DNA of 64,000 bases from Acuticoccus sp. MNP-M23. Its GTDB lineage: Bacteria; Pseudomonadota; Alphaproteobacteria; Rhizobiales; Amorphaceae. The notes beneath the pieces are model-generated. The model saw only the letters and a list, made by a program, of their open reading frames with translations. It was not told where the DNA came from and searched no databases. The position numbers were made by a program, and so were the translations under genes. Where the stretch lies: contig NZ_CP133480.1 of the NCBI RefSeq assembly GCF_031195445.1, positions 124,001-188,000 on the forward strand. Direction: 5' to 3'. Every line of letters starts with the position of its first letter. The first letter of the stretch is position 1. Shown piece after piece: positions 12,310 to 17,940 of this stretch.

Positions 12310-13556
12310 GTGCCTTCGGCGCGCTCGAATGGAACATCGCGTGGCGGTATCTCCGCTCGCGCCGGCGCGAAACGTTCGTGTCGGTCATCTCCACGCTGTC
12401 GCTGATCGGCATCGCGCTTGGCGTTGCGACCCTCATCATCGTGATGGCGGTGATGAACGGGTTCCGCGCCGAACTCTTCAACAAGATCCTCGGCGTTTCC
12501 GGCCATGTCCTCCTCCAGCCCATCGACGGCCCGCTGACCGACTTCAGGGCGGTCTCGGACCGGATCGAGAAGGTCCGCGGCGTGACGATGGCGATCCCCT
12601 TTGTGGAGGGACAGGCGCTGGTGTCGGGCAAGGTGGGCTCGTCCGGCGCGCTGGTGCGCGGGCTGGAACAGCAGGATTTCGACAAGCTGACCTTCGTGTC
12701 CGACCGCTTGCTGCTCGGCAATGGCGACACCTTCGGGACCTCCAAGGGCGTGATGATCGGCTCGCGGCTCGCAGCCAGCCTCGGCGTCTCGCTGGGGGAC
12801 TCGATCCAGCTCATCAACCCCAACGGCGCGGTCACGCCCTTCGGCGTCACGCCGCGGATCGAGAGCTACCCCATCCAGGGCATCTTCGAGATCGGCATGA
12901 GCGAATACGATTCCTCGTTCATCTACATGCCGCTGGAAGAAGCGCAGTACTACTTCAACGAGGAAAACGAGGTCACGGCGATCGAGGTCTTCGTCGACGA
13001 TCCGGACAGTGTCGACCGGTTGCGACCGCTGATCGATACCGCCGCCGCCCGCCCGCTGTTCCTGATCGACTGGCGGCAGCGCAACCGCACCTTCTTCTCC
13101 GCGCTGGTGGTGGAGCGCAACGTGATGTTCGTCATCCTGACGCTGATCATCCTCGTCGCAACCCTCAACGTCATCTCCGGCATGATCATGCTGGTGAAGG
13201 AGAAAACGCGCGACATCGCGATCCTGCGCACCGTCGGCGCCGGCCGCGCCATGATCATGCGGGTGTTCCTGATCGTCGGCCTCTCCATCGGCGTGGCGGG
13301 CACGCTGATCGGCTTCGTGCTGGGGACGCTGATCGCGCTCAACATCGAGGCGATCCGGCAGTTCATCTCGTCCCTCCTGCGGACCGAGCTGTTCTCGCCG
13401 GAACTCTATTTCCTGTCCAAGATGCCGGCCGACATGGACTCCACCCAGACCACAGTCGTCGTTGCCATGGCGCTGATCCTCTCGCTGCTGGCCACCATCT
13501 ATCCGGCATGGAAAGCGGCCAAGACGGACCCCGTCGATGCGCTGAAGGCCGATTGA
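12306..13556 (+). CDS. lolC: Lipoprotein-releasing ABC transporter membrane subunit (LolC/LolE)
   Basis: A 416-residue inner-membrane protein. TM1 lies near residues 25-50 and is followed by a large periplasmic domain (about 50-270). Three C-terminal transmembrane segments carry the FtsX-type pattern [16 protein letters not shown], which couples to the ATPase. It extracts outer-membrane lipoproteins from the inner membrane and hands them to LolA. Alphaproteobacteria commonly have a single LolC/E homodimer, consistent with one gene here. Start and stop overlap the flanking genes (ATGA, TGATG). Confidence 0.92.
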
Positions 13557-14242
13557 TGAGCGAGACCCCACCGCCTCTGGCGCTTACGGGCGTCACCCGT
13601 CACTTTGGCGACGGCGATACCGTGGTCAACGTCCTCACCGGCGTCGACCTCACCATCCTGCGCGGCGAGCTGGTGGCACTGGTTGCCCCGTCCGGCGCCG
13701 GCAAATCCACGCTCCTGCAGATCGCGGGGCTTCTGGAACGGCCGAGCGGCGGCACGGTGGCCATTGGCGGCATCGATGCCGGACACCTGTCCGACAAGGA
13801 ACGCACCGCCATCCGGCGTGACAGGATCGGCTTCGTCTACCAGTTCCACCACCTTCTCGGCGACTTCACGGCACGGGAGAATGTCGCGCTGCCCCAGCGG
13901 CTTGCGGGCGTTTCCCCCGGCGCCGCGCTCAAACGGGCCGACGATCTTCTGGAAACGCTCGGCCTTGCCTCCCGCCGCACCCACCGCCCCGGCGCACTGT
14001 CGGGCGGCGAGCGCCAGCGCGTCGCCATCGCAAGAGCGGTCGCCAACAAGCCCGACCTGCTCCTGGCAGACGAACCGACCGGGAACCTTGACCAGGGCAC
14101 TGCGGAAAACGTTCGGGATGCGTTCCTATCGCTCAGCCGCGAGAACGGCCTAGCCGCACTGGTCGCCACGCACAACCCCGCGCTGGCTGGTGACATGGAT
14201 AGGATTGTGCACCTCAGTAACGGTTTGGTAACCGACTCATAG
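13556..14242 (+). CDS. lolD: Lipoprotein-releasing ABC transporter ATPase
   Basis: A 228-residue ABC ATPase of the MacB/LolD family, with Walker A APSGAGKST, signature [16 protein letters not shown], Walker B LLLADEPTGNLD and the H-loop VATHNP. It powers lipoprotein release by LolC/E. Its ATG overlaps the lolC stop by one base. Usual length for the family. Confidence 0.93.
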   Translation: MSETPPPLALTGVTRHFGDGDTVVNVLTGVDLTILRGELVALVAPSGAGKSTLLQIAGLLERPSGGTVAIGGIDAGHLSDKERTAIRRDRIGFVYQFHHLLGDFTARENVALPQRLAGVSPGAALKRADDLLETLGLASRRTHRPGALSGGERQRVAIARAVANKPDLLLADEPTGNLDQGTAENVRDAFLSLSRENGLAALVATHNPALAGDMDRIVHLSNGLVTDS

Positions 14243-14262
14243 AACGAACCAGAACACCTCAA

Positions 14263-14291
14263 TTGATGTTCTCGTAATATTCTCATACAGT
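14263..14291 (+). promoter_or_regulatory. Promoter candidate with SOS (LexA)-like box in its spacer
   Basis: TTGATG (14263-14268) and TACAGT (14286-14291) are 17 bases apart and resemble -35 and -10 hexamers. In the spacer is GTTC-N7-ATTC (14268-14282), one base off the alphaproteobacterial LexA operator GTTC-N7-GTTC. The next translated element is the 32-codon ORF at 14321. Pattern match only. Confidence 0.4.
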
Positions 14292-14320
14292 CCCTCCATA
14301 GAACAAATGGAGAGGCAGTC

Positions 14321-14419
14321 ATGAAGCGGTTCATTCTCGATCTCGGTGGCCTGGTGTCCTGCGCGTCCTTCCTCGGCGCGGTCTATCTGTGGATGGGGCA
14401 CGTTCAGTCCATCATCTAG
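14321..14419 (+). CDS. Very small membrane protein (32 residues)
   Basis: The frame starts at an ATG preceded by a strong GGAGAGG (14309-14315, 5 bases of spacing) and runs to a TAG, encoding MKRFILDLGGLVSCASFLGA followed by VYLWMGHVQSII. A basic start followed by a roughly 18-residue hydrophobic stretch predicts one inner-membrane helix. It lies between lolD and dnaE behind a LexA-like promoter. Size, topology and possible SOS control recall SidA, the 29-residue SOS-induced division inhibitor of Caulobacter; this is a hypothesis and I cannot align the two here. Confidence 0.55.
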   Translation: MKRFILDLGGLVSCASFLGAVYLWMGHVQSII

Positions 14420-14511
14420 CCTCTACGCCAGCCGGCTCGCCGCCTACTCTGGCGGGCCTTCATCATCCGGCGGCAATCGGCCGCCGGCCTCAGGCGCGAA
14501 CGGAGCGGCAC

Positions 14512-17500
14512 ATGTTCATTCACCTGCGTGTTCACTCGGCGTTCTCGCTCCTCGAGGGCGCGATGCAGCTGAAGAAGATCATCAGCCTCGCAGGGGATGA
14601 CAAGCAGCCCGCCGTGGCGGTGACGGACACCGCCAACCTCTTCGGCGCGCTGGAGTTTTCCGAAAAGGCATTCGAGGCGGGCATCCAGCCGATCATCGGC
14701 TGCACCGTTCCCTTGCGCCTGCCCGAGCGGATCCAGAACGGCAAGCAGATCACCCCGGTGACGCGGCTCCCCCTCTACGCCGCGAACGAAACCGGGTTCA
14801 TGAACCTGCAGCGCCTCATCAGCCACGCGTACCTGTCGTCCGAAGGCCGCTCCCCCAGCGTCTCGATGGCGGACTGCGCGACCTATAGCGAAAGCATCAT
14901 CGCGCTGTCCGGCTGGCTCGGCGGCCCCGTCGGCTTCTCGTTACGCGATGGCGACTTGGATGCCGCCCGCGCGATGACCGCCGCGCTTGCCGAAACCTTC
15001 GGCGATCGCTTCTACTGCGAACTCCAGCGCCACGGCGACAAGGGCGAGACCACGCTGGAAGAGGCCACCGTCAACATGGCCTACGACATGGGCCTTCCGC
15101 TGGTTGCCACCAACGAGGCCTACTTCGCCGCCCACGATGACTACGAGGCGCACGACGCGCTGATCGCCATTGCCGAAGGCCGCCGCCTTGGCGATGACGA
15201 CCGCCGCCGCCTCACCGCCGAACACTGGCTGAAGCCGCAAAGCGCGATGGAAGCCCTGTTCGCGGACCTGCCGGAGGCCATCGAGAACACCGCCGAGGTG
15301 GCGCTGCGGTGCTCCTACCGCCCGCGCAAGCGCGGCCCGATGCTGCCGAGCTTCCTTGCCGGCGAAGGCGGCGGCGAAGCGCGCGACGCGGCGGACGACA
15401 TCGAGGCGGAGGCCGAGCGCCTGCGCACCATGGCGCTGGAGGGGCTGGAAAAACGCTTTGCCACCCGCGGCATGGCGCCCGGCGTCGAGCGCGAGGTCTA
15501 CGCCAAGCGGCTGGAGCACGAACTTTCCATCATCACGTCGATGAAGTTCCCCGGCTACTTCCTCATCGTGGCGGACTTCATCCAGTGGGCGAAGCAGCAG
15601 GACATTCCGGTCGGGCCGGGCCGCGGCTCGGGTGCCGGCTCGCTGGTCGCCTACGCGCTGACGGTCACCGACCTCGATCCCCTCCGGTTCGACCTCCTGT
15701 TCGAGCGCTTCCTCAACCCAGAGCGCGTCTCGATGCCGGACTTCGACATCGACTTCTGCCAGGACCGGCGCGACGAGGTGATCACCTACGTTCAGAAGCG
15801 CTACGGCGCCGACAAGGTGGCGCAGATCATCACCTTCGGAACGCTGCAGGCGCGCGCCGTGGTGCGCGACGTCGGCCGCGTCCTCGACATGCCCTATTTC
15901 AAGGTCGACCAGCTCGCCAAGATGGTGCCGTCGAACCCCGCCAACCCGGTCACGCTGGGCGAGGCGATGAAGACCGAGCCCGCGCTCCAGCAGGCCCGCA
16001 AGGAGGACGGCGAGGTCGACCGCCTCCTGCAGATGGCGCTGAAGCTGGAAGGCCTCTACCGCCACGCCTCCACCCACGCCGCCGGCATCGTCATTGGCGA
16101 CCGGGCGCTGGAAGAGATCGTCCCGCTGTACCGCGATCCGCGCTCGCCGCTGCCGGTCAGCCAGTACAACATGAAGTGGGTGGAGAGCGCCGGCCTCGTC
16201 AAGTTCGACTTTCTGGGCCTGAAAACGCTCACCACCATCCAGCGCGCGCTGGCACTGATCGACGAACCCATCGACCTCGACACCCTCCCGCTCGACGACA
16301 AGGCCTCCTACGAGCTTCTGGCCCGCGGCGAGACGGCCGGCGTGTTCCAGCTGGAAAGCCAGGGGATGCGCAAGGCGCTGGTTGGCATGAAGCCGGACCG
16401 GTTCGAGGACATCATCGCCATCGTGGCGCTCTATCGCCCGGGCCCGATGGACAACATCCCGAGCTACAACCTGCGCAAGCAGGGGCTGGAGGAACCGGAC
16501 TACCTCCACCCCATGCTGGAGCCGATCCTGAAAGAGACCCACGGCATCATCATCTACCAGGAGCAGGTGATGCAGATCGCGCAGGTCCTCTCCGGCTACT
16601 CGCTCGGCGAAGCTGACCTTCTCAGGCGCGCCATGGGCAAGAAGATCGCTGCCGAAATGGCCGTCCAGCGCGACCGCTTCGTGGAAGGCGCCGAGGCGCG
16701 CGGCACCTCCGCCGCAGACGCCAACCACATCTTCGATCTTGTGGCCAAGTTCGCCAACTACGGCTTCAACAAGTCGCACGCCGCAGCCTATGCGCTGGTC
16801 GCCTATCACACGGCCTATCTCAAGGCGAACCACCCCAAGGAGTTCCTGGCCGCCTCGATGACGCTCGACATGGGCAACACCGACAAGCTGAACGATTTTC
16901 GCGCCGAGGCGCAGCGCATGGGCTTTGACGTCAAACCGCCGTGCGTGCGCACGTCCCGCGCGGAATTCACCGTGGTGGACGATGCCATCGTCTACGGCCT
17001 TGCGGCGGTGAAAGGCGTCGGCCGTCCGCTGGTCGACTTCATCGAGGCCTCGCAGACCGAGCCCTACAAGAGCCTCACCGACTTTGCGAACCGGCTCGAC
17101 CCGAAAGTCGCCTCCAAGCGTGCGCTGGATGCGCTGGTGTGCGCCGGCGCATTCGATTGTTTCGGCACCGACCGTGCCACGCTGTCGGGCGGCCTCGACC
17201 AGATCATGGGCGTTGCCAACCGCGTCGCCAGCACTGCGGCCATGGGCCAGAATGACTTCTTTGGCGAAGCCAAGGCAGAAGACCTGCGCCTGCCCACCGA
17301 TGCCGCGTGGACACCCGCCGAACGGCTGAAGCGCGAGCACGACGCCATCGGCTTCTACCTCTCGGCCCATCCGCTGGACGACTATGCCGAAGCGCTGCGC
17401 GGCGCCAGCGTCCCCCGCTGGCGGGATTTTGCGCAGCAGGTGCGCGTCGGCGCGGGGACGCGGCTTGCGGGCGTGGTGATCTCGCGGCAGGAGCGGCGCA

Positions 17501-17940
17501 CCAAGAGCGGCAATCGCATTGCCATCGTCCAGCTGTCCGATCCGTCAGGTCAGTTCGAGGCGGTCGTGTTTCAGGATACGCTGGAGGCCTGCCGCGACCG
17601 GCTGGACCCCGGCGCCTGCGTCCTCCTCACGGTCACCGCGCAGGAGCGGGACGAAGGGCTGGCCGTGCGCATCCAGAACGTGGAGCCATTGACCAAGCTG
17701 GCCGGCGCCGGCCAGCGCTCCCTCAAGGTGTTCATCGACCGGCCGACGGCCATCGTCTCCATCGACAAGCTTCTGGGCGACACCGGCGCTTGCGGCGTGA
17801 CGTTTGTCGCGCTCGCCCCGTGCGGCACGGAAACGGACATCGTGCTGCAATCGGGCCGTGCGGTGTCACGCTCCGTGGCCAACGCCATCCGCTCCATGGC
17901 GGGCGTGGTGGACGTGCGCTACACCGAAACCTCGCACTGA
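14512..17940 (+). CDS. dnaE: DNA polymerase III alpha subunit
   Basis: The replicative C-family polymerase, 1142 residues, of normal DnaE1 length. The PHP domain starts at once (MFIHLRVHSAFSLLEGAM). The palm has the catalytic PDFDIDF motif (Asp near residues 410 and 412), and the fingers include the YQEQVMQIAQVLSGYS region. Toward the C-terminus are helix-hairpin-helix segments, then an OB-fold (GTRLAGVVISRQERRTKSGN) and the tau-binding region. A GGAGCGG precedes the ATG. It is not dnaE2, because no imuA or imuB lies nearby and the lol/dnaE context is that of the essential gene. Confidence 0.96.
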   Translation: MFIHLRVHSAFSLLEGAMQLKKIISLAGDDKQPAVAVTDTANLFGALEFSEKAFEAGIQPIIGCTVPLRLPERIQNGKQITPVTRLPLYAANETGFMNLQRLISHAYLSSEGRSPSVSMADCATYSESIIALSGWLGGPVGFSLRDGDLDAARAMTAALAETFGDRFYCELQRHGDKGETTLEEATVNMAYDMGLPLVATNEAYFAAHDDYEAHDALIAIAEGRRLGDDDRRRLTAEHWLKPQSAMEALFADLPEAIENTAEVALRCSYRPRKRGPMLPSFLAGEGGGEARDAADDIEAEAERLRTMALEGLEKRFATRGMAPGVEREVYAKRLEHELSIITSMKFPGYFLIVADFIQWAKQQDIPVGPGRGSGAGSLVAYALTVTDLDPLRFDLLFERFLNPERVSMPDFDIDFCQDRRDEVITYVQKRYGADKVAQIITFGTLQARAVVRDVGRVLDMPYFKVDQLAKMVPSNPANPVTLGEAMKTEPALQQARKEDGEVDRLLQMALKLEGLYRHASTHAAGIVIGDRALEEIVPLYRDPRSPLPVSQYNMKWVESAGLVKFDFLGLKTLTTIQRALALIDEPIDLDTLPLDDKASYELLARGETAGVFQLESQGMRKALVGMKPDRFEDIIAIVALYRPGPMDNIPSYNLRKQGLEEPDYLHPMLEPILKETHGIIIYQEQVMQIAQVLSGYSLGEADLLRRAMGKKIAAEMAVQRDRFVEGAEARGTSAADANHIFDLVAKFANYGFNKSHAAAYALVAYHTAYLKANHPKEFLAASMTLDMGNTDKLNDFRAEAQRMGFDVKPPCVRTSRAEFTVVDDAIVYGLAAVKGVGRPLVDFIEASQTEPYKSLTDFANRLDPKVASKRALDALVCAGAFDCFGTDRATLSGGLDQIMGVANRVASTAAMGQNDFFGEAKAEDLRLPTDAAWTPAERLKREHDAIGFYLSAHPLDDYAEALRGASVPRWRDFAQQVRVGAGTRLAGVVISRQERRTKSGNRIAIVQLSDPSGQFEAVVFQDTLEACRDRLDPGACVLLTVTAQERDEGLAVRIQNVEPLTKLAGAGQRSLKVFIDRPTAIVSIDKLLGDTGACGVTFVALAPCGTETDIVLQSGRAVSRSVANAIRSMAGVVDVRYTETSH

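Follow-up and report, generated by a model that had tools for sequence, protein, structure and literature searches.

The SOS-induced protein SidA of Caulobacter has been described as a 29-residue protein of the inner membrane with FtsW and FtsN as interaction partners; mutations in FtsW or FtsI can overcome its action (PMC4211646). Its gene is classed among the early LexA-controlled SOS genes (PMC12700426). Among the papers listed by literature searches for SidA beyond Caulobacter, none describes Hyphomicrobiales relatives in its title or abstract opening. In Sinorhizobium meliloti, a small ORF with translation evidence, sORF25, has been reported in the 5'-UTR of dnaE1 (PMC10117765). A second division inhibitor of Caulobacter, DidA, is reported to act on the FtsW/I/N complex, but is SOS-independent and induced via DriD (PMC4211646). 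In other phyla, YneA of Bacillus and SosA of Staphylococcus are described as SOS-induced division inhibitors, the former interacting with FtsW. Both have larger parts outside the membrane.

A small gene between lolD and dnaE

The locus analyzed here lies in a stretch of 64,000 nucleotides from Acuticoccus sp. MNP-M23, hereafter the window, and comprises the following genes and translation signal.

13556 to 14242, plus strand: 5' neighbour, an open frame that we take to be lolD, the lipoprotein exporter ATP-binding subunit, as named in the preliminary description and consistent with the ABC motifs seen
14309 to 14315, plus strand: Shine-Dalgarno GGAGAGG, 5 nt ahead of the ATG, read directly
14321 to 14419, plus strand: small gene, putatively SidA-like, 32 residues with one predicted transmembrane helix (conservation, frame selection, helix model, profile link)
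14512 to 17940, plus strand: 3' neighbour, a frame of 1142 residues, presumably dnaE, the DNA polymerase III alpha subunit

Direct reading of the sequence places the ATG at 14321 and the end of the stop codon at 14419, with the product MKRFILDLGGLVSCASFLGAVYLWMGHVQSII, in agreement with the coordinates and the 32-residue ORF of the preliminary description. The strong Shine-Dalgarno claimed there is also found, and this position is purine-rich in most congeners. AlphaFold2 predicts a single helix for the protein (residues 2-31, mean pLDDT 91.1), consistent with the single transmembrane helix proposed previously. No convincing second copy of the ORF is found in its own genome, the next best match (16.5 bits) lying within a 531-residue frame.

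A search with the 32-residue protein in 61 genomes finds it in all eight genomes of the genus, a count that includes the window's own genome, with E-values of 3.6e-4 or better. The seven congener proteins share 48-67% identity with the window protein, and comparison of the lolD-dnaE gap among these relatives locates the ORF between the two genes in 8/8 genomes. In each of the two genomes sampled from the sister genus (L023/L054 and L035), dnaE is likewise preceded by a 32-residue ORF; the protein search had picked up just one of the two (E 1.55). Across the eight genus sequences, compared over 28 codons, pS is 0.552 and pN 0.239 (pN/pS 0.43), while the other two frames return pN/pS of 0.80 and 2.03, with two stops in each; differences are commonest at third codon positions (0.467 versus 0.315 and 0.188). 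The small ORF is a real gene under purifying selection.

Two candidate RNA structures around the start of the gene were set aside: a hairpin near the ribosome site (~14293-14312; z -0.99), the 5' arm of which lies ahead of the likely transcription start, and a terminator-like hairpin at 14251-14272, of which 0.8 are expected by chance. Separately, a GC-rich stem-loop without a T run occupies positions 14467-14488, between the small ORF and dnaE, and could reduce read-through into dnaE.

Promoter and LexA-like site in the genus

The region upstream of the small ORF contains the following elements.

14263 to 14268, plus strand: -35 element TTGATG (TTGATG in 7/8 congeners, TTGCCG in one)
14268 to 14282, plus strand: LexA-like operator GTTC-N7-ATTC, both half-sites retained in 8/8 congeners
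14286 to 14291, plus strand: -10 element TACAGT, with a 17-nt spacer in 8/8 congeners

The spacer of TTGATG-17-TACAGT contains the body of GTTC-TCGTAAT-ATTC. The preliminary description had reported a LexA-like GTTC-N7-ATTC within a 17-base promoter spacer; this arrangement does recur in 8/8 congeners, but in every one of them the box departs by one base from the perfect direct repeat GAAC-N7-GAAC. The perfect repeat is present at the lexA promoters of the genus in 8/8 cases and at the recA promoters in 7/7, LexA being detected over the cut-off in 8/8 genomes (one congener has a second and partial LexA-like match of 41.6 bits at G007:C246:5724-5912) and recA in 7/8; the window's own genome encodes both lexA and recA, each with perfect boxes. 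In the gap preceding the small ORF, L008 is the one congener with a perfect LexA box, which lies elsewhere in the gap (position 43); the sister genus has a perfect box as well.

A wide matrix derived from the dnaE-upstream boxes of other families (72 boxes, some without a tie to a small ORF) ranks the window site first of 127,960 window positions, whereas a narrow matrix built from the 15 boxes at the genus's recA and lexA promoters ranks it 612th in the window. Genome-wide, GTTC-N7-RTTC returns 192 matches versus 110 for the reversed control, which by itself is weak evidence for a LexA site, and a consensus promoter scan calls nothing at the small-ORF promoter. Promoter and site stand above chance because the ORF, the spacing and the site are kept in 8/8 congeners and the same layout is encountered in other families. 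Given the one-base-off box and its first rank by one matrix against the 612th by the other, LexA control of the small gene in this genus is likely but not certain, as judged from sequence.

Small ORFs upstream of dnaE beyond the genus

The survey was extended to the dnaE-upstream DNA of three sets of loci. The first comprises 61 loci from 31 families of the order, 21 of them among the best DnaE matches and 40 hand-picked for family spread, drawn from the 292 genomes with a DnaE match (eight being the genus itself); the first 110 residues of the dnaE product find a match in 292 out of 297 genomes of the order, and L049 was excluded as its stretch was truncated and read inside dnaE. The second holds 60 class-draw loci hand-picked from 181 genomes with a match, and the third 77 further loci from genome contigs (80 minus L205, L220 and L259, which have short upstream DNA). 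A locus was counted when a perfect LexA box is followed, 25-100 nt on, by an ORF of 22-50 residues that encodes a hydrophobic core and has bases resembling a ribosome site. In alignment A2, row L004 stands two codons out of register.

Box and small hydrophobic ORF occur together upstream of dnaE at 32/61 order loci, 6/60 class loci and 21/77 genome-contig loci, and in none of the ten dinucleotide shuffles performed for each of the three sets. Within the order sample, 19 of the 31 families have such a pair, or 20 when boxes with one mismatch also count; 11 families return none by this test. No pair was found at any of the examined dnaE loci named Rhodobacteraceae, nor does a small ORF accompany the boxes of the 15 recA and lexA upstream stretches of the genus. 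The box usually lies within the promoter spacer, as in the typical stretch CTTGACAAAAGAACAAAACAAGAACATA, and TTGA precedes it by 5-14 nt in 36 of 61 box-ORF pairs. The distance from the stop of the small ORF to the dnaE match ranges from 24 to 338 nt.

Across families, the small proteins share a recurring D..A....F......W pattern, and lysine and arginine residues total 81 before the helix core and 18 after it over 61 rows. A Pfam scan of 51 family members gives a best E-value of 0.024, and none of its matches was judged real.

Longer forms were also observed. In family f61, L091 and L093 encode 47 residues, with a ~15-residue N-terminal extension before the common helix, and have perfect LexA boxes. 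In family f11 (L052 and L128), in the region ~700-150 nt upstream of dnaE, LexA boxes precede a longer frame, of 103 and 114 residues from the chosen ATG, without any Pfam match over cut-off; towards its C-terminus this frame encodes a helix similar to the small proteins (VVRDLALLSVMIVAATAFVGMTGL; VVRDAAAFGALVLFATMVAVVLLGLG).

Relationship to SidA

The curated SidA equivalog model, NCBIfam NF033228 (div_inhib_SidA, cut-off 35 bits), does not match the window protein, and its best match in the same genome (13.1 bits) is at a place other than the small ORF. Over the class draw, none of 190 genomes exceeds the cut-off, and most of the weak matches look like chance. One of them, however, at 18.1 bits in G359, lies 224 nt upstream of the dnaE match, in an ORF of 29 residues with two perfect LexA boxes, and it is this match that led to the synteny between SidA and dnaE. 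With the G359 DnaE as query, loci named Brevundimonas, Phenylobacterium and Caulobacter, from relatives of C. vibrioides, were retrieved. Three of the five dnaE-upstream ORFs of Caulobacteraceae that were scanned pass the model (L194, 65.8 bits; L195, 59.6 bits; L197, 58.0 bits), with Brevundimonas L192 (23.9 bits) and G359 (20.5 bits) below the cut-off. These scores place SidA directly upstream of dnaE in Caulobacteraceae. The same kind of dnaE-upstream ORF, with one-off LexA boxes, is present in the Caulobacteraceae L191, L193 and L196. The curated model itself passes only for close Caulobacter relatives.

Sequences of 32 hydrophobic residues carry little homology signal. A first decoy test, in which the window ORF fell behind 29 of 647 decoys, was discarded since family members from other loci and start sites had contaminated the decoy set. 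The decoys retained are 77 hydrophobic ORFs from places away from dnaE, and the main profile was built from 37 Hyphomicrobiales proteins, with SidA and this genus excluded. This profile scores all eight SidA-locus proteins at 13.4-26.3 bits, above all 77 decoys (best 6.6 bits). It gives the window protein 7.7 bits; six of the eight genus proteins beat all decoys and two fall among them. A profile of all groups, SidA included and this genus excluded, places all eight genus proteins above all decoys (17.1-28.8 bits; best decoy 9.3), the window protein being at 28.8 bits. A profile from SidA alone scores most other groups weakly; it assigns 5.5 bits to the window protein and does not clear three of the eight genus proteins from the decoys.

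The window ORF resembles the ORFs of the Caulobacteraceae loci, which have LexA boxes, in that it encodes ~30 residues with one helix and lies directly upstream of dnaE. It differs in that its product is unmatched by NF033228, its upstream neighbour is lolD and its LexA-like box is one-off. As a one-helix ORF within the 22-50 residue range, directly upstream of dnaE and with a profile score above matched hydrophobic decoys, it probably belongs with the wider SidA-like group at the dnaE locus defined here; where that group has a LexA box GAAC-N7-GAAC ~25-100 nt from the start, the window has the one-off version. The curated model does not identify the window protein as SidA; we propose with moderate confidence that the two belong to one diverged family. 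The preliminary description had suggested a small membrane protein analogous to SidA. The shared place upstream of dnaE, the LexA boxes of the Caulobacteraceae loci and the profile tests linking the groups support this proposal and make homology more likely than analogy.

Proposed function and alternative explanations

The window ORF probably encodes a diverged, SidA-like peptide that is repressed by LexA and inhibits the synthesis of septal wall. It would be part of a wide alphaproteobacterial group of membrane peptides with a single helix and SOS control, Caulobacter SidA among them. LexA bound to the box between the -35 and -10 elements would keep the promoter silent. After DNA damage, LexA cleavage would open the promoter, and the peptide would be made from a short leader. 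It would then enter the inner membrane, presumably with its positively charged N-terminus inside in view of the lysine and arginine bias across the helix core, and would act like SidA on the FtsW/FtsI/FtsN complex, delaying septum synthesis until repair. The gene, its conservation, the predicted helix, the promoter layout, the place beside dnaE and the profile link to SidA are observed here; LexA control in the genus, membrane insertion, the target and division arrest are inferred. No SulA (PF03846) over the cut-off is found in this genome (best 12.1 bits versus 23.1), which leaves room for a SidA-like division brake. By description, DidA may share the proposed FtsW/I/N target, but differs in its SOS-independent induction via DriD; YneA and SosA, set side by side with the window protein on the same basis, would be comparable as SOS-induced division inhibitors of other phyla.

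A less likely reading of the promoter in the genus involves another regulator. An exact palindrome, ATGTTC-N3-GAACAT, overlaps the LexA-like site in 5/8 genomes (L005, L006, L007, L008 and L010). It is rare elsewhere, with 1-3 places in each of these five genomes and none in the other three, which rules it out as a general SOS box. The perfect direct repeat is missing at this site in every congener. On this reading, the gene would encode a small membrane protein that is conserved but has another function, with a non-LexA regulator reading the palindrome. We consider this unlikely: the window and two further congeners have a broken palindrome, while GTTC and ATTC are retained in 8/8, perfect LexA boxes occupy the same place in the sister genus and in most families with the ORF, and one-off boxes also precede the SidA-like ORFs of L191, L193 and L196.

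The main rival to a SidA-like inhibitor, which fits poorly and to which we assign a low probability, is that induction of dnaE is the purpose of the LexA promoter and that the small ORF is a leader (uORF), the peptide having no role. The ORF is indeed always on the same strand as, and just upstream of, dnaE. Moreover, sORF25, compared by description only, is likely the Rhizobiaceae counterpart of the window ORF, and the authors of that study suggest a uORF role for 5'-UTR sORFs, naming sORF25 before dnaE1, in a main text in which the terms LexA, SOS and SidA do not appear (PMC10117765). A leader, however, does not account well for purifying selection on the peptide sequence or for the D..A....F......W pattern recurring across families, and the variable distances from the small ORF to dnaE are ill-suited to a leader whose effect depends on geometry. 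At the same place, SidA is reported as a tested protein effector (PMC4211646).

Lastly, short ORFs are common and the box, taken by itself, shows hardly any genomic enrichment, but a chance ORF with a chance promoter-like sequence is ruled out, as near to certainty as such data go, by conservation in 8/8 congeners, frame-specific selection and the complete lack of box and ORF in ten shuffle rounds.

Significance

On a broader scale, we see an even chance that SidA is one branch of an ancient alphaproteobacterial SOS division checkpoint, which has kept its place directly ahead of dnaE in lineages ranging from Caulobacterales to Hyphomicrobiales, with rewiring and extension in some of them. The operator would have been rewired in this genus, and a long N-terminal part would have been gained in family f11. 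Such a family would have gone unnoticed because the gene is ~30 codons long. The papers retrieved give no description of division arrest after DNA damage for rhizobia, Devosia, Stappia and their relatives, and a SidA-like gene, present at one fixed position in 19 of the 31 sampled families, would provide a precise candidate division brake for each. Its constant pairing with dnaE also prompts one to ask why a division brake would travel with the replicative polymerase.
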